DNA from: a virus
Length of the DNA: 40,607 nt
Virus record (IMG/VR): IMGVR_UViG_3300042301_001646
Span: 1-40,607 of that record
Strand: one strand, 5' to 3'
Within the stretch, counting starts at the first letter, position 1; each line of letters begins with the position of its first letter. Positions 31,711-40,494 of this stretch are shown one piece after another. The notes beneath the pieces are model-generated. The model ran no database searches and was not told where the DNA came from. It worked only from the letters and a program-made list of their open reading frames with translations. Made by a program: the position numbers and the translations under genes.

Positions 31711-31878
31711 GTGGAATTTATTGATTTGTTAATTGAGGATTTTGAGGAATTGAAAATTTTGACAGATTTTGAAAAAAAATACTTGAAATTGTTAATTTCG
31801 GATGCTATTGTCTCTTCATTGACCGACCCAAGTCTGGTTGACGAAGCTCAAAATAATCTAAAAAATGTTAATAACTAA
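31711..31878 (+). CDS. Small acidic ORF before GMP reductase gene (55 aa)
   Basis: A GTG-started ORF of 55 residues (VEFIDLLIEDFEELKILTDF then LVDEAQNNLKNVNN) that overlaps the start of the next gene by 14 bases. It is acidic and helical with no motif. It fills a gap that otherwise has no coding sequence, and the overlap suggests translational coupling. The start codon is uncertain, since no ribosome site is clear. Confidence 0.45.
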   Translation: MEFIDLLIEDFEELKILTDFEKKYLKLLISDAIVSSLTDPSLVDEAQNNLKNVNN

Positions 31879-32854
31879 AAGTAAAAGTTTTTATTATAAC
31901 GATGTTAATTTACTAGCATCAAAGCCCACCATAGTACGTAGTAGATCTGAAGTACCTATAGATCGCTCGAAAATAATCATATCACCAATGGCAAGTATTG
32001 TGGGAAGTAAGTTTGCGCAAACTGCCACTGATAATGGCCTCACTGTATGCTTACACCGTTTCTGTACACCAGAAAAACAGGTAGAAATTTATAATTCATT
32101 AAATAATAAATCAAATGTGTTTCTATCTGTCGGTTTAAATGATATAGATAGAATTAAATTTTTACAAAAAGAAAAAGTAACTAATTGGTTATTAGATATA
32201 GCTAATGGAACCGTTCCTCAGATTAAGGATTTTCTTTTACAGTTAAAAGATTTAACTGAAATAGAGAGAATAATGGTAGGGAATGTTCATCATGAAAAAA
32301 CATTCGATTGGTTAAAAGAATTAGTTAAGGAAACTATCAAACCAAGAGAATGTTTAATTAGAGTCGGAATAGCTGGGGGAAGCGCCTGCGCAACATCAGA
32401 CATGACCGGAATAAATAGAGGTCAGATAACTGAAATTGATTCATGTGCTCACTTAACTAACAATAGGACCAAACTAATAGCAGATGGTGGCATATCTAAA
32501 CCATCTTTCGCGGCTAAAGCTTTTGCGGCTGGAGCCACACACATTATGCTTGGTGGATATTTTGCCAGCGCAGATATAGCCGAAACCAATCTAATTGGAG
32601 ATGGTACATATTGGGGTGGGGCAAGTCATAAACAGCAAGAATTATTTAATGTAAACGGAGTGAAGAAACCTTCAGAGGGTAAAGTTTATAAAATCCAAGA
32701 AATTAAATCATTCCAAGAGTTATTAGATAATTTAATTGGTGGTTTACAATCAGCTATATCTTACTGTGGTTATTCTTCATTAGAAGACTTTATAGGTAAC
32801 GGTGTTTTTGAAGAAAAAGCGAATTCGCTTCCTCCGAAAAATCGTTTTGAATAA
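31865..32854 (+). CDS. IMP dehydrogenase/GMP reductase family enzyme
   Basis: A 329-residue TIM-barrel enzyme. Catalytic loop GGSACATSDMTG (Cys near 175) corresponds to the family GPGSxCTT active site; ADGGI (207-211) and MLGGYFASAD (228 on) match the phosphate-binding loops. The length is close to GMP reductase (about 345) and too short for IMP dehydrogenase with CBS domains. GMP reductase converts GMP to IMP with release of ammonia and oxidation of NADPH. Residues that tell reductase from dehydrogenase were not resolved by eye. It is uncommon in phages and could tune the purine pool, or supply a base-modification pathway. Confidence 0.85.
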   Translation: MLITKSKSFYYNDVNLLASKPTIVRSRSEVPIDRSKIIISPMASIVGSKFAQTATDNGLTVCLHRFCTPEKQVEIYNSLNNKSNVFLSVGLNDIDRIKFLQKEKVTNWLLDIANGTVPQIKDFLLQLKDLTEIERIMVGNVHHEKTFDWLKELVKETIKPRECLIRVGIAGGSACATSDMTGINRGQITEIDSCAHLTNNRTKLIADGGISKPSFAAKAFAAGATHIMLGGYFASADIAETNLIGDGTYWGGASHKQQELFNVNGVKKPSEGKVYKIQEIKSFQELLDNLIGGLQSAISYCGYSSLEDFIGNGVFEEKANSLPPKNRFE

Positions 32855-33388: not shown

Positions 33389-33825
33389 CATTAGTAATAA
33401 ATCAAGAATTAAAGAAATTAGAAAATATACTATCCGCGGCTAATAAAGATAATTGGAATGAGGATGGGTATAAAAAAATTGAAGATAGTGTGGGTAATAA
33501 AGCCCGCGAGATAATATCTAATTTAAATCCAAATCTACCAATGCCAATTATAACTCCGAGCAAGAATGGTGAGTTGAGTATAGCCTGGAGTAATCAAGTT
33601 GATAGGGCTGTTGAATTAATAATAGATAATACAGATTTAGTTACATTACTTACTCATGATTTTAAGAATGATATTTTCAAAGAATATATTTATCCAGATA
33701 ATTTCATAGATGTATTCGTAAGCGTACCAAATTTGATATTTGGAGAATATACTAATTCTTATATAGTATCTATACTACCTTCATTTGGTCCTGATTGTTT
33801 AGAATTTTATTTTATAGGAGTGTGA
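33385..33825 (+). CDS. Early hypothetical protein (146 aa)
   Basis: The start is the ATG at 33385, overlapping the previous TGA (ATGA), giving 146 residues (MTLVINQELKKLENILSAAN; KNGELSIAWSNQVDRAVELI; PDCLEFYFIGV). It has an N-terminal helical part and a C-terminal beta-rich part with alternate hydrophobic residues, resembling unknown phage and mobile-element proteins of similar size. It precedes the C5-methyltransferase with a GTGA overlap. No function assigned. Confidence 0.6.
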   Translation: MTLVINQELKKLENILSAANKDNWNEDGYKKIEDSVGNKAREIISNLNPNLPMPIITPSKNGELSIAWSNQVDRAVELIIDNTDLVTLLTHDFKNDIFKEYIYPDNFIDVFVSVPNLIFGEYTNSYIVSILPSFGPDCLEFYFIGV

Positions 33826-34700
33826 ATATACTTTCTCTTTATGATGGTATTTCCTGCGGGCAATTAGCCTTAAACAGAGCCGGAATACCAATAACTAAAT
33901 ACTATGCGAGTGAAGTTGATCCACATGCAATAAAAGTAACTCAGAATCATTGGCCCGATACTATACAACTTGGTGATATTAAAAATATAACCAAAGATAT
34001 AGTTGCAGATATAGATATGATAATTGGGGGTTCGCCCTGTCAAGATTTATCATCTGCTGGTAGGTTAAATGGAATGTCAACCAAAGATAATCAAGATATA
34101 ACTTCTTTAAATCAGTATTTAGAGCTAAAGAATAAGAATTTTGAGTTCAAAGGGCAGTCTTATTTATTTTGGGAATTTGTTCGCTTGTTAAAGGAAATTA
34201 AACCAAAATATTTTCTTTTAGAGAATGTAAAGATGAAGAAGTATTGGCAAGATATAATAACCCAAACTTTAGGGGTCGAGCCAATAGAAATAAATTCAGC
34301 CCTGGTCGTTCCTCAAAATAGAAAAAGATTATACTGGACAAATATACCCTTCAATGGTATAGAGAAGATAGATTATAAAGTCGAAGATTATATAGACGGA
34401 GAAGGATTCCCATCGCAATGCGATAGAAAAAGATTCTTTTCCCAAAAAGCTATATTTCCTACATTGGTTGCAAGTTATAATAAGGGTATTCGCGGCTGTA
34501 GACCCGCAGTAAGTACGAAGGAAGGTTTTTATGACGAAGATAGGTCTTTCCATAGAAAATTATCTATAGAAGAATTTGAAAGATTACAAACATTACCAAT
34601 AGGATATACAAAAGGGATTTCAGAAACTCAAAGATATAGATGTGTTGGTAATGGATGGACCGTAGATATATTGAAAAATATATTTAAAAATTTAAAATAA
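33822..34700 (+). CDS. C5-cytosine DNA methyltransferase
   Basis: A 292-residue DNA cytosine-C5 methyltransferase that starts at the GTG at 33822 and overlaps the previous stop (GTGA). Motifs in order: I LSLYDGISCG (4-13, AdoMet site), IV GGSPCQDLS (69-77, catalytic Cys), VI ENV (134-136), VIII QNRKRLYW (about 165-172) and X CVGNGWTVDIL near the end. The LYDGISCG opening resembles the compact DNMT3-like phage enzymes. It probably protects phage DNA from host restriction, or marks it. No cognate endonuclease is adjacent. Confidence 0.93.
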   Translation: MNILSLYDGISCGQLALNRAGIPITKYYASEVDPHAIKVTQNHWPDTIQLGDIKNITKDIVADIDMIIGGSPCQDLSSAGRLNGMSTKDNQDITSLNQYLELKNKNFEFKGQSYLFWEFVRLLKEIKPKYFLLENVKMKKYWQDIITQTLGVEPIEINSALVVPQNRKRLYWTNIPFNGIEKIDYKVEDYIDGEGFPSQCDRKRFFSQKAIFPTLVASYNKGIRGCRPAVSTKEGFYDEDRSFHRKLSIEEFERLQTLPIGYTKGISETQRYRCVGNGWTVDILKNIFKNLK

Positions 34701-34707
34701 ATATACC

Positions 34708-34911
34708 ATGGAAGAAATAAAAGAACAAGTAATTGGCGGGATGAATAGCGAATTAAACAAGCTTATAGATATAAGTAAAGGTATAGGTAGAGAAGACATA
34801 ACCCAAGCCTGTGATGAGTTAATTCACGCGATATATAGTGTTCAGGATTGGAGTGGTACTTATGTTGGTGAATGTATAGAGAGGTTGGAGGCGATTTTAT
34901 ATCAAAGATGA
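34708..34911 (+). CDS. Small protein between methyltransferases (67 aa)
   Basis: A 67-residue helical acidic protein (MEEIKEQVIGGMNSELNKLI then ITQACDELIHAIYSVQDWSG). It lies 7 bases after the C5-methyltransferase and overlaps the next methyltransferase by four bases (ATGA), so it belongs to the same operon. No motif recognised. Confidence 0.6.
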   Translation: MEEIKEQVIGGMNSELNKLIDISKGIGREDITQACDELIHAIYSVQDWSGTYVGECIERLEAILYQR

Positions 34912-35636
34912 GAAGAGAAATATGGTTCGGAGATTGTTTGGAATTAATGAGTAATATTCCAGATAATAGTATTGATTGTGTTATTTGCGACCTTCCATTT
35001 GGAACTATATCTTGCGCCTGGGATATTATAATTCCATTTGATAAATTATGGGAGCAGTACAATAGAATTTGCAAGAATAATGCTGCGGTAGTATTATTTG
35101 GAAGTCAGCCATTTACAACTGATCTAATACTTTCTAATAGAAAGAATTTTAAATATCCTTTAATTTGGAGTAAAAATGTACCAACTGGTATGTCTTATGC
35201 TAAATATAGGCCAATGAAATACCATGAAGATATACTTATATTTTATAGAGAGCAACCAACATACAATCCAATAATGAAAGAAAGAGTTGGGGTAGGTAAA
35301 GCCTGCTATAACTACGATCATTATTGTGGTAAATCGAATCATATAAAACTAGATAAAGTAAAAAAGAAATACGATCCCAATTATGTGCAGCCAAGTTCAG
35401 TATTAGATTTTAAAGTAGTGCCAAATAGGAATGGTAAATTACATCCAACACAGAAACCAGTAGAGTTATTAGAATATCTTATTAAAACATATACAAATGA
35501 AGGTGATTTAATTTTAGATAATTGTGCTGGAAGTGGCTCAACTTTAGTAGCAGCTAGAAATCTAAATCGTCAGTTTATTGGAATTGAAAAAGAAAAAGAA
35601 TACTACGATATTTGTGTAGAAAGATTAAATATATGA
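34908..35636 (+). CDS. N6-adenine/N4-cytosine DNA methyltransferase
   Basis: A 242-residue beta-group-type amino-methyltransferase (start ATG 34908). Catalytic motif DLPFGT (28-33), variant of DPPY, lies at the N-terminus; AdoMet-binding motif NCAGSGSTLVAARNLNRQFI is near the C-terminus. This order (catalytic before AdoMet motif) fits N6-adenine/N4-cytosine methyltransferases of the type found in many phages. FGSQPFTTDLILSNRKNFKY and the TQKPVELLEYLI segment are family features. Substrate base and target site cannot be told by eye. It forms a module with the C5-methyltransferase and HNH nuclease. Confidence 0.92.
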   Translation: MRREIWFGDCLELMSNIPDNSIDCVICDLPFGTISCAWDIIIPFDKLWEQYNRICKNNAAVVLFGSQPFTTDLILSNRKNFKYPLIWSKNVPTGMSYAKYRPMKYHEDILIFYREQPTYNPIMKERVGVGKACYNYDHYCGKSNHIKLDKVKKKYDPNYVQPSSVLDFKVVPNRNGKLHPTQKPVELLEYLIKTYTNEGDLILDNCAGSGSTLVAARNLNRQFIGIEKEKEYYDICVERLNI

Positions 35637-37369
35637 AACAGCAAATTCTCAAACTTAACGCAAATTACTTTCCAATAGGAATAGTAAATTGGAAGGAGGC
35701 TATGGTTGATATAGTAAGTGGCGCAAGCTACCCAATAGATATCCATTATGAAAAGGATAATTCCGGGATAGATAAGGCCAAGATATCATATATGAATGTT
35801 ATCAAAGACTTTAAAGAATGGAGCGAACTTCCTATAAGAGAATATGATGATTATGTACTCGGCGCGAAAAGTGTTTACAGATTACCCTCGGTTATAATAT
35901 GTAGCCGCTATGATAAGATCATACATAAGAAAGTTGTATTTCCTACTAAGAATAATATCTGGCGCAGGGATAAATTCACATGCTTTGCCCGTGACACTCA
36001 AGTAATAACTAATTTAGGTTGTAAAAATATACAAGATATTAAAGAAGGTGACATGGTATTAAATTCCAAAGGATTTGGCAGAGTTAATAAAATATTTACA
36101 AAATATATAGATGAAGAGATTTTTGAGATTAAATCTATGGGTAATTATCCAATATATGTGACAGGAGAACATGAGATACTAATTCACCCCGAAATCAAAG
36201 AAAAGATAAAAGCAAATTATTTTGATAATTTTGATGAGACTAAATTTATTTATAAGAAATCTAATTCTCTGAAAAAAGGTGATCTAGTTATAACTCCAAA
36301 TATCAATACATTGAATTTTTCATTTAATAGTTTAGATAAATTTGATCTATTTGAATCACTAAATAATAGAAGTTTTTATACTTGCAACGACACACAAATA
36401 ATAAATTATCATAAAAAAACTTTTGATCGTTATGTTGAAATTGAACCAAACATATTATTTCTATTAGGTCTATATGCTGCTGAAGGTTCAGATTCTAAAA
36501 ATTATTTAGTATTCTCATTACATAAAAAAGAACAATACTTGATTGATAAGATCACTGAATATTTCATGAAGTTAGGAATCCCAACTCAAATTTTCACTAG
36601 AAAAGACTCTGATGGCATCCAAGTTAATGTATATAATTCTATTTGGCGAGATTTTTTTGTATTTCATACTGGAAAGGGGTGCCAAAATAAATTTATTCAT
36701 AAAAAACTATTTGGATTAAATCAAGAATTAATGATTAACTATATGTATGGGGTATTTTACGGAGATTCGCATATTAATCATAAAAATAATAAAACAGTAT
36801 TGCAAATTACCTCGAAACAACTTATTAATGATATTAAATTTCTTTTAAATAAATGGGATATATATCCATCTTACCAAGAATTTCAAGTGGTAAATAAAAG
36901 AGATATTTATTCTTTAATTTTACAAGGTGAGGATAATTATAAATTTTGGAAATTAGATACTTTAAAATATAAAAAATCTAATAAAAGATATTCTTTGATT
37001 TATAATGATTTAAAATGTCAGTCTACCAGGATAACATCTATTAAAAAAATTCCATACAAGGGATTTGTATATGATTTAAATATCGAAGATTTACCACAAT
37101 ATACTGCTGGAGGAATATTTGTACATAATTGCGGTTATACAGGCAAGAAGTTGACAAAAGATCAATTATCCATAGATCATATAATTCCTTCAAGTAAAGG
37201 CGGCCAGAATACCTGGGAAAATCTAATAACCTGCGAGAAAAGCTTAAATACTTGGAAAGGTAACAAAAGCTTAAAAGAGTGTGGATTAAAATTATTATTT
37301 AAACCCGAGAAACCCAAGAACGGTTTAGTATTCTTAATGTCGCGAGAAGAGTGGGAAGTTTTCCTATAA
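35633..37369 (+). CDS. HNH endonuclease interrupted by an intein
   Basis: The precursor is 578 residues from the ATG at 35633, which overlaps the previous TGA. Residues 1-116 and 500-578 are the extein parts: LNANYFPIGIVNWKEAM, then RRDKFT, which joins CGYTGKKLTKDQLSIDHIIP and SKGGQNTWENLITC, an HNH endonuclease (DH, N, and closing residues). Residues 117-499 form the intein, so the splice product is about 195 residues. The nuclease is therefore inactive until splicing, since the insertion splits its HNH module at the first metal-site cysteine. It closes the methyltransferase operon, so it may be a nicking or homing enzyme. Confidence 0.9.
   Translation: MKQQILKLNANYFPIGIVNWKEAMVDIVSGASYPIDIHYEKDNSGIDKAKISYMNVIKDFKEWSELPIREYDDYVLGAKSVYRLPSVIICSRYDKIIHKKVVFPTKNNIWRRDKFTCFARDTQVITNLGCKNIQDIKEGDMVLNSKGFGRVNKIFTKYIDEEIFEIKSMGNYPIYVTGEHEILIHPEIKEKIKANYFDNFDETKFIYKKSNSLKKGDLVITPNINTLNFSFNSLDKFDLFESLNNRSFYTCNDTQIINYHKKTFDRYVEIEPNILFLLGLYAAEGSDSKNYLVFSLHKKEQYLIDKITEYFMKLGIPTQIFTRKDSDGIQVNVYNSIWRDFFVFHTGKGCQNKFIHKKLFGLNQELMINYMYGVFYGDSHINHKNNKTVLQITSKQLINDIKFLLNKWDIYPSYQEFQVVNKRDIYSLILQGEDNYKFWKLDTLKYKKSNKRYSLIYNDLKCQSTRITSIKKIPYKGFVYDLNIEDLPQYTAGGIFVHNCGYTGKKLTKDQLSIDHIIPSSKGGQNTWENLITCEKSLNTWKGNKSLKECGLKLLFKPEKPKNGLVFLMSREEWEVFL
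35981..37129 (+). mobile_element. LAGLIDADG intein (383 aa)
   Basis: An in-frame intein. It begins with Cys (CFARDTQVITNLG, block A), contains a block B region with VTGEHEI, and ends with block F (GFVYDLNIEDLPQYTAGG) and block G FVHN, with Cys as the +1 residue of the extein. A homing endonuclease is inserted: LAGLIDADG motif 1 FLLGLYAAEGSD and motif 2 NYMYGVFYGDSHI, the second somewhat divergent. The key splicing residues (Cys1, His-Asn, Cys+1) are intact. Base composition is more AT-rich than the flanking extein, indicating separate history. It can in principle home into intein-less alleles of the same HNH gene. Confidence 0.92.
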
Positions 37370-38643: not shown

Positions 38644-38930
38644 GTTCAGAATTATACCAGCTTAAAGAACATTTATTTAAACTATTAGAAGATAGTAATT
38701 TGGGGCCGAGGTATATAATAAACACCTCAGATGAAGACGGGGAGTGTTATAGTTTCTTTTTCCTTGGGGGTTACAATGCCGATATAGATCTATTTATAGA
38801 TATGATCGTGCCATCTATTAAGAAATGTCATACAACATATCTCGCCGACATACCAATAAAGAATAAAGAGGATATAGATGAGATTATAGAAAAGATCGTA
38901 GAATTTATAAAAGGAGCAGATAAGATATGA
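38640..38930 (+). CDS. Tandem early paralogue C (96 aa)
   Basis: A 96-residue copy with MSSELYQLKEHLFKLLEDSN, FFLGGYNADIDLF and IPIKNKEDIDEIIEKI. It is closer to copy A than to copy B through the GGYNADI and PIKNKxDI blocks. The end overlaps the SLOG gene by four bases. The role is unknown; acidic, small and duplicated early proteins might be decoys or inhibitors. Confidence 0.7.
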   Translation: MSSELYQLKEHLFKLLEDSNLGPRYIINTSDEDGECYSFFFLGGYNADIDLFIDMIVPSIKKCHTTYLADIPIKNKEDIDEIIEKIVEFIKGADKI

Positions 38931-39421
38931 GTATATACTATGCGGGTATTGGGGCGCGAAGTGTCTGCCCGGAGGTGGAAAGATTCTTTAAAGGTCTTGG
39001 TAAGTTCTATGCCCAACAAGGATATATATTAAGATCGGGCGGGGCGAGAGGCTCGGACCAGAGTTTTGAATATGGCTGCGATTTAGCCGGGGGAAAGAAA
39101 GAGATCTATTTGCCATACAAAGGGTTTAATGGTAATTCTTCGGAATTATATCATGTTTCACAGGAGGCGATGAGTATTGCCCGGGAGGTGTGTCCCCATT
39201 GGGATTACCTGAATGAAGTTTCAAGGAGGTTATTGGGGCGCAATGTGTATCAGATCCTTGGCCCTGATTTGTGTGACCCGGTTAAGTTTGTCGCGTGTTA
39301 TACAGAAGGTGGGGAGAAGAAGGGCGGCACGAGAGTTGGGATCATGTTGGCGGAAAAGTATGAAGTGCCTGTGTTTAATTATGGCTTGGTGTTTTCTGTG
39401 GGTGTTACAAAACAGCTATAA
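38927..39421 (+). CDS. SLOG/DprA-like Rossmann-fold protein (164 aa)
   Basis: A 164-residue protein with a SLOG-type nucleotide-binding pattern: YYAGIGARSVCPEVERFF at the start, ILRSGGARGSDQSFEYG (the GGA-x-G-D loop) near residues 34-50, KEIYLPYKGFNG and late GGTRVGIMLAEKYEVPVFN. Phage proteins of this kind are common and of unknown function; relatives act on nucleotides or bind DNA. It is more GC-rich than the genes before it and marks a change in composition that continues to the right edge. The first TTACAAAAC repeat lies inside its last codons. Confidence 0.78.
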   Translation: MSIYYAGIGARSVCPEVERFFKGLGKFYAQQGYILRSGGARGSDQSFEYGCDLAGGKKEIYLPYKGFNGNSSELYHVSQEAMSIAREVCPHWDYLNEVSRRLLGRNVYQILGPDLCDPVKFVACYTEGGEKKGGTRVGIMLAEKYEVPVFNYGLVFSVGVTKQL

Positions 39422-39710
39422 TTCAGCATAACCTTCCCCGTTTTTTTTATTTTCCATTGCGAGGGTGTGTTGGGCGGTGGTGTATTATAGCCTTTTGTTA
39501 CAAAACTGTTGTAAGGGGGTTATAGCCCTCTAGTTTTGGGGCTTTAGCGTGTTACAAAACGGTTCTGGTGTTTTTTTTATTATTGCTTTTTTTCATTTGC
39601 CCTTCGGGCTGGTGATATAGCGTGTTACAAAACGGTTGGATTGGGTATTTTATTATTGCTTTTTTCATCTGCCCTTCGGGCTGATGGTCTAAACGTGTTA
39701 CAAAACGGTT
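39404..39710 (+). repeat. Five GTTACAAAACNGYT iteron-like repeats
   Basis: Copies at 39404-39417, 39497-39510, 39551-39564, 39624-39637 and 39697-39710 share GTTACAAAAC followed by (A/T/G)G(C/T)T. The second extends to a palindrome, TTACAAAACTGTTGTAA. Three of them are embedded in 73-base direct repeats. Regular short repeats in a non-coding stretch are typical of replication origins, partition sites or regulator arrays; which one cannot be told. Confidence 0.75.
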
Positions 39711-39731
39711 CTGGTGTTTTTTTTATTATTG
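39549..39731 (+). repeat. 73-base direct repeats with UUCG hairpin
   Basis: A unit of about 73 bases starting GTGTTACAAAACGGTT is present at 39549-39621 and 39622-39694, and half a copy at 39695-39731. Each full unit holds a T-rich tract, TTATTATTGC, then GCCC-TTCG-GGC, a hairpin with the extra-stable UUCG loop. The T tract lies before rather than after the hairpin, so it is not a normal plus-strand terminator. Confidence 0.75.
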
Positions 39732-39762
39732 AGGGGGTGAGTGTCCCCGGCCGCGCCGGGCG

Positions 39763-39816
39763 ATTTTAATGTTAGCTTAATTTTCATTAACCCCCCCATT
39801 TTAATGTTAGCTTAAT
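39763..39816 (+). repeat. Exact 19-base direct repeat
   Basis: ATTTTAATGTTAGCTTAAT occurs at 39763-39781 and again at 39798-39816, 35 bases apart start to start. The spacer holds a run of seven C. The unit includes the near-palindrome TTAGCTTAA. Confidence 0.85.
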
Positions 39817-39857
39817 GTGGACCGCCTGACACATCCTGACGTATTTCATCCTGACGC

Positions 39858-39887
39858 AAAAAAAAATTGACAGGAAAACCCTGCCAA
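39858..39887 (-). terminator. Second minus-strand terminator
   Basis: On the minus strand TTGGCAGG pairs with CCTGTCAA (one G-U pair) across a six-base loop, followed by nine T. It lies after the stronger hairpin at 39903-39934 and forms a tandem stop for the poly-Ser gene transcript. Confidence 0.75.
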
Positions 39888-39902
39888 TTCCGACCCTCAC
39901 AT

Positions 39903-39934
39903 AAAAAAAAAGAGCGGGGGCTTGCGCCCCCGCC
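39903..39934 (-). terminator. Strong GC-rich terminator after poly-Ser gene
   Basis: On the minus strand GCGGGGGC-GCAA-GCCCCCGC (39914-39933) is a perfect 8-bp stem with a GNRA-type GCAA loop, followed by TCTTTTTTTTT. It lies 14 bases past the stop of the minus-strand gene at 39948 and supports that gene as real. Confidence 0.92.
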
Positions 39935-39947
39935 CTATCACATCCTA

Positions 39948-40358
39948 TCACTCTTCCGATTCCCTGGAAAGGTCTGCCAGGTATTTAAGCGCCCTCTCTT
40001 TTGCCAAGTCGTAAAAGTTACTGATATCGACTCGAGCTATTTCGACCTTGGCATCTCCGGGCATTTCACCAATTACATCTCGCAAGCTCATTCCTCCTTC
40101 CAATCTTTCCACCGTAAGACTCGCCATAAAAGCGGCATCCGTAAGGCGGTGAGGATTAGCTTTGATGATTTCCATGATTTCGTCAGGCGTCCGTTGGCGT
40201 TCATTGACGATTGTCATGCGGGCCGAGCCTGGCAAAATCCGTTGACTAATGCCATCGTTGATTTGAGCCGGCGTCAGAGCGTATTTCAGTCTGAAGCCCG
40301 TGGGCCGTCCTGGACGGTTTTGAGAAGAAGAAGAAGAAGAAGAAGAAGAAGAATTCAT
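39948..40358 (-). CDS. Poly-Ser protein of unknown function (136 aa)
   Basis: A 136-residue protein that begins MN followed by ten Ser, then QNRPGRPTGFRLKYALTPAQ, a basic piece with an AT-hook-like core (PGRPTG). The rest is helical (TPDEIMEIIKANPHRLTDAA; KVEIARVDISNFYDLAKERA). It is more GC-rich than the rest of the phage and has its own tandem terminators. DNA binding, for example as a regulator or a small terminase-like protein, is possible but not shown. The Ser run is encoded by a TCT/TTC triplet repeat that may vary in length without changing the frame. Confidence 0.6.
   Translation of the reverse strand: MNSSSSSSSSSSQNRPGRPTGFRLKYALTPAQINDGISQRILPGSARMTIVNERQRTPDEIMEIIKANPHRLTDAAFMASLTVERLEGGMSLRDVIGEMPGDAKVEIARVDISNFYDLAKERALKYLADLSRESEE
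40323..40353 (+). repeat. (GAA)10 microsatellite within CDS
   Basis: Ten GAA triplets on the plus strand encode the Ser run of the minus-strand gene. Triplet repeats of this length are uncommon in phages and could expand or contract by slippage. Confidence 0.85.
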
Positions 40359-40494
40359 GATGGTTTTTTTTCTATGGTTTAGTTAAGACGGCTTTTTCGC
40401 CGTGGGATACCTTTACCATAAGGCTCGAGTATTGCAAGTAGTAAAAAGGGTTTTCTGCAAATTCTTTTCTTAATCGGATTTTAATCTTCCCCAG
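40359..40494. other. Upstream region of poly-Ser gene
   Basis: It holds a hairpin (ACGGC-TTTTTC-GCCGT around 40388-40404) that would sit in the 5' leader of the poly-Ser mRNA, and TTGCAA/TATGGT sequences on the minus strand at poor spacing. No clear promoter or gene is seen. Confidence 0.4.

Follow-up and report, generated by a model that had tools for sequence, protein, structure and literature searches.

The locus analyzed here raises the question of how an HNH nuclease gene of a phage came to carry a long in-frame insert at the edge of its catalytic motif, and whether this arrangement is a single accident or recurs in other phages. The window, i.e. the whole stretch of DNA that was analyzed, is a single virus record of 40,607 bases. 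Judged from its sequence, the insert is best read as a class 1 intein that carries a LAGLIDADG homing endonuclease and has invaded the HNH gene at a conserved residue, and we assign this reading a probability of roughly 90%.

Anatomy of the interrupted gene

The features of the gene and of its upstream neighbors are listed in Table 1. The start proposed by the ORF finder was a TTG at position 35612; the ATG at 35633 was used instead. This ATG forms a four-base overlap (ATGA) with the stop codon of the N6/N4 methylase gene, and translational coupling of the two genes is possible. As originally predicted, a LAGLIDADG intein of 383 residues lies exactly between RDKFT and CGYTG. Removal of its 1,149 bases joins the exteins into an HNH protein of 195 residues.

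Table 1 Coordinates of the HNH gene, its intein, and the adjacent methylase genes in the window
Feature	Position	Strand	Evidence
C5-cytosine DNA methylase, before the N6/N4 methylase	33795..34700	+	Pfam DNA_methylase (E = 2 × 10−36)
N6/N4 DNA methylase, upstream of the HNH gene	34872..35636	+	Pfam N6_N4_Mtase (E = 4.3 × 10−31)
HNH gene with intein	35633-37369	+	ATG start, open frame over 578 codons
N-extein, HNH protein residues 1-116 (N-terminal domain and conserved RD motif)	35633..35980	+	Alignment with intein-less L160 and L002
Intein, class 1, 383 aa, precursor residues 117-499	35981..37129	+	Pfam/NCBIfam, splicing residues, composition
First LAGLIDADG motif FLLGLYAAEGS, acid E168 (intein numbering)	36458..36490	+	Invariant E168; fold match to PI-SceI and I-DmoI
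Second LAGLIDADG motif YMYGVFYGDSH, acid D262 (intein numbering)	36740..36772	+	Invariant D262; fold match
C-extein, 79 codons and stop: entire HNH motif (CGYTG, D515-H516, N530, N539, precursor numbering) and C-terminal tail	37130..37369	+	Pfam, invariant columns

All residues expected of a splicing-competent element were present, in agreement with the original prediction. The intein starts with CFARDTQV, whose Cys1 is the nucleophile, and block B reads TGEH; Cys1, T61, and H64 are invariant among the inteins found at this site. The C-terminal block F/G (VYDLNIEDLPQYTAGGIFVHN) ends with the penultimate His and terminal Asn (HN), which are followed by the +1 Cys. A nucleophile at residue 1 (Cys or Ser), a TxxH block B, a penultimate His and terminal Asn followed by Cys, Ser, or Thr, and an empty extein allele are expected of a class 1 intein, and each of these features is present here. 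Among the profile matches to the precursor, Intein_splicing (E = 2.1 × 10−12) and LAGLIDADG_3 (E = 7 × 10−12, covering the intein in two stretches) exceeded their curated Pfam cut-offs. The profile for the intein C-terminus (TIGR01443) also exceeded its cut-off, whereas that for the N-terminus (TIGR01445) stayed below it (19.7 vs 24.5 bits).

The LAGLIDADG region matched PI-SceI and I-DmoI at a probability of 1.00 in a Foldseek search with an AlphaFold model of the precursor, in which confidence was weak overall (pLDDT 54), about 70-80 across most of the LAGLIDADG region, and low for the Hint part. Motifs, acidic residues, and modeled fold thus point to a two-motif LAGLIDADG endonuclease.

The base composition shifts sharply at the boundaries of the insert. 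With a G+C content of 24.7%, the intein was the lowest among 34 ORF segments in the window, and its third-position G+C was 16%, compared with 36% in the exteins (p = 1.3 × 10−7). The extein value in turn exceeds that of most window genes, from which we infer that the HNH gene and its insert are both relatively recent arrivals.

Elsewhere in the window, an IMP dehydrogenase/GMP reductase-like gene was found at 31865-32854 (Pfam, E = 2.1 × 10−30). The ORFs at the right end (38927-40382) have a G+C content of 46-49%, compared with 34% in the window as a whole; none of them has a Pfam match. For positions 1-25000, no close isolate phage was found at the DNA level.

Empty alleles and recurrent occupation of the site

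The original prediction called for intein-less alleles in related phages, and these were found. Over residues 2-195, the joined exteins showed 70% identity to the uninterrupted protein L160; end-to-end identities to further uninterrupted genes were 58% (L002), 55% (L132), 52% (L143), 49% (L113), and 46% (L003). At the DNA level, the joined flanks matched L160 at 70% across 538 columns spanning the junction. Such agreement is far beyond chance, and the boundaries of the intein are certain because the intein-less alleles are continuous across the junction. Failure of the two extein halves to align with HNH proteins, the outcome named beforehand as speaking against the prediction, was not observed: once joined, they aligned end to end. 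For the host gene compared with L160 and L002, synonymous changes were saturated and no dN/dS value was obtained. No near-identical (>85%) empty allele was found, which counts against the explanation by a homing intein as far as recent homing is concerned.

Occupied sites were searched for with DNA patterns joining an intein end to CxY(C/T)G. Three additional phage HNH genes from IMG/VR carried an intein at the identical residue: (i) L020 (3300035698_028977), with a LAGLIDADG intein of 361 aa in an intact ORF; (ii) L012 (3300033153_013781), with a LAGLIDADG intein of 367 aa that is frameshifted once, at a stretch of eight A; and (iii) L034 (3300050010_000571), with a mini-intein of 180 aa, unlike the full-length intein of the window. 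The frameshift (L012:2360-2414) may be genuine or may have arisen in sequencing, possibly the latter. All three share with the window the HNH family, the insertion residue, Cys1, the terminal HN, and the +1 Cys. The inteins of L020 and L012 align with that of the window over their full length at 23-24% identity (23-28% among all full-length inteins at this site), and both have the acids E168 and D262. The original view that an endonuclease within an endonuclease is unusual is weakened by these three phages, in which an HNH gene is interrupted at the identical position.

Occupied sites are nevertheless few. At least 120 contigs contained the uninterrupted motif, and all those listed were in-frame, intein-less HNH genes. 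This places an upper limit of about 3% on occupancy at this motif, with about 97% of the sites found being empty. The site is thus a rare yet recurrent intein target, not a one-off. A candidate empty paralogue in the contig of L034 (L045) was rejected, as it is the same gene.

The pattern VHNCxYCG gave 22 matches, of which two (L012 and L020) are HNH inteins; the others were chance matches, one short recurring element (VHNCVYCGHKVIA), or inteins of other genes (L025 and L031). Both viral matches to HNCxYTGK (L009 and L010) were due to chance, and the HN-CxY(C/T)G-DH pattern with DH one residue nearer gave no match. Close relatives of the window intein were found neither in viral contigs nor in plasmids. 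No occupied HNH site was detected in 84,980 prokaryote genomes (species) with one exact DNA pattern, which other spacings and intein ends would escape; its nine matches contained no HNH intein, and four of them were a natural HNCQYCG in HNH genes of Opitutae.

Some of these contigs hold inteins in other genes. The phage inteins at L025:5670-5692 and L031:10128-10150 have a VHN end before CxYCG in non-HNH genes, with ORFs of 1103 and 682 codons, respectively; that of L031 is short and mini-intein-like. About 1.1 kb downstream of the HNH gene of L012, a ribonucleotide reductase gene (L012:3940-8412) apparently contains two more inteins, and this phage thus appears to have three inteins within about 7 kb. 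In addition, L048 (Mannheimia phage vB_MhS_587AP2) has an intein-bearing C5 methylase gene with an annotated HNH homing endonuclease gene immediately after it.

The four genes with an intein took four separate positions in a phylogeny built from 70 HNH proteins, and well-supported branches forced four changes in the presence of the intein. Because of these separate positions, the site was probably invaded more than once. Repeated arrival is the simpler reading compared with an old intein followed by many losses. In the intein tree, the inteins of the HNH site formed no supported clade, although constraining them to a single clade was not rejected (AU test, p = 0.09).

The host nuclease and alternative explanations

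The HNH identity of the extein, also part of the original prediction, was borne out by Pfam matches to HNH_4 (E = 3.8 × 10−9), HNH_5 (E = 8.8 × 10−9), and HNH, all above their curated cut-offs. These matches begin at precursor residues 499-500, i.e. at the +1 Cys. The motif residues D515, H516, N530, and N539 are invariant over 10 relatives, and all lie downstream of the intein, which leaves the motif uncut and sits on the boundary of the HNH core.

The insertion residue had been described as the first metal-site Cys. It is indeed the first Cys of the motif, but the metal site is missing, as the second to fourth zinc Cys positions are occupied by T, E, and L. By sequence, the window protein is not a zinc-type HNH nuclease with four Cys ligands (CxxC...CxxC), and the +1 Cys does not belong to a zinc site, its three partner ligands being absent. 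The hosts in L020 and L012, unlike that of the window, retain all four Cys, as do 101 of the 120 listed empty relatives. In the remaining 19, the second Cys position holds T or S, and the second CxxC pair is missing from all 19. The window protein can thus be placed in a real subgroup without a zinc site, marked by CxYTG and the lack of a second CxxC. In this phage subgroup, CxY(T/S)G (19/120 of L052-L171), the three zinc Cys appear to have been lost together, with D-H, N, and the first Cys kept.

The best reading of these observations is an ordinary homing intein at a recurrent insertion site, in a class of exteins that has been under-recorded. After translation of the precursor, the intein would excise itself and join RDKFT to CGYTG, giving the HNH protein. 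The LAGLIDADG domain would cut intein-less copies of the gene in co-infecting phages, and repair would copy the intein into them. The insertion residue is the Cys that opens CxY(C/T)G; it is conserved in the family and could double as the +1 nucleophile in splicing, and this would account for the presence of inteins at one spot in unrelated phages.

Many phage HNH genes are homing enzymes. The HNH host could accordingly be a free-standing homing endonuclease parasitized by the intein, an extension of the homing-intein explanation that we regard as possible but tentative. L002, a close empty relative, sits among other nuclease-like ORFs, and the HNH copies of the window, L160, and L002 have no common neighbor genes in the stretches compared. 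On the other hand, the HNH gene has the same conserved setting in L003, L113, and L159, with QueE/FolE-like genes on one side and a kinase-like gene on the other (gene names assigned from sequence), which would be expected of a resident gene, and members of the family also occur in bacterial contigs (L038, L039, L040, and L044). Between L003 and L113, the neighboring genes are 88-91% identical, compared with just 57% for the adjoining HNH gene, and this suggests that the HNH gene was replaced or changes fast. A stronger version, in which the intein repeatedly targets the catalytic-motif edge of phage HNH homing endonucleases as a single hot spot and splicing arms the host nuclease, seems rather unlikely.

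Somewhat less probable still is a pairing of the HNH protein, as nuclease, with the upstream methylases in a phage restriction or host-DNA-degrading module to which the intein is incidental. The overlap with the N6/N4 methylase gene and the C5 methylase gene just upstream would fit such a module, but no relatives of the window methylases were found within 5-12 kb at L160, L002, L132, L143, L113, L159, and L162. These are the seven closest HNH loci (>46% identity), and the pairing is thus not conserved among them.

It is plausible that HNH activity depends on splicing, as originally proposed, although the intein leaves the HNH motif uncut. A further step would be for splicing to act as a switch by which the onset of HNH activity is regulated and delayed in the infected cell, and we consider this improbable. 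Conditional splicing is known in other inteins (PMC6195587, PMC7360933), and attenuation of a homing-endonuclease ORF by a group II intron nested within it has been described (PMC4801052). However, the precursor might already be active because the HNH motif residues all follow the intein, and the large share of empty sites indicates that the HNH gene normally works without a splicing switch. Least probable of all is a dead intein in a decaying gene, with splicing or endonuclease function lost: Ser replaces Gly after the second LAGLIDADG acid and the G+C content of the insert is very low, but the frame is fully open, and the splicing residues and both LAGLIDADG acids are retained.

Relation to known systems and implications

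Many phage genes of DNA metabolism are known to harbor inteins. The best score of the window intein was obtained not with its site-mates (87 and 73 bits) but with the ribonucleotide reductase intein of Enterococcus phage vB_Efa29212_3e (OP559178.1, L008; 111 bits, 26-27% identity over the whole length). Both are class 1 inteins with LAGLIDADG, but the exteins differ. PI-SceI (the VMA intein) and I-DmoI have the same two-motif LAGLIDADG fold in a different extein or intron context, with 13-18% sequence identity.

The nearest parallel in terms of the host protein is provided by the RecB-like nucleases of mycobacteriophages, in which inteins are found in the conserved catalytic PD-(D/E)XK motif (Kelley et al. 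2016, PMC5050341). As a rule, mycobacteriophage inteins occupy conserved motifs of genes for DNA metabolism (PMC5050341). A phage nuclease as host and insertion at a catalytic motif are common to both cases, but the nuclease type is PD-(D/E)XK rather than HNH; the RecB-like genes were formerly labeled HNH, and the authors detected no HNH motif (PMC5050341). A self-splicing element in an endonuclease gene is also represented by the group II intron that interrupts a homing-endonuclease ORF in mS1247 of Chaetomium thermophilum and acts as an attenuator (PMC4801052), which differs from the window in that it operates at the RNA level and in a mitochondrial group I intron endonuclease. No description of an intein in a true HNH nuclease was found in a search limited to open-access literature, where the single reported set of intein-bearing phage nucleases was of the PD-(D/E)XK type.

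Four cases at one residue, dispersed across the HNH tree and set against at least 120 empty sites, constitute a natural data set on how inteins find and retain a site, and the same set bears on whether another nuclease gene can accommodate a homing element. Ready substrates for cleavage are available in the empty alleles. Should the HNH host turn out to be a homing enzyme, the locus would clearly exemplify one selfish gene residing within another.
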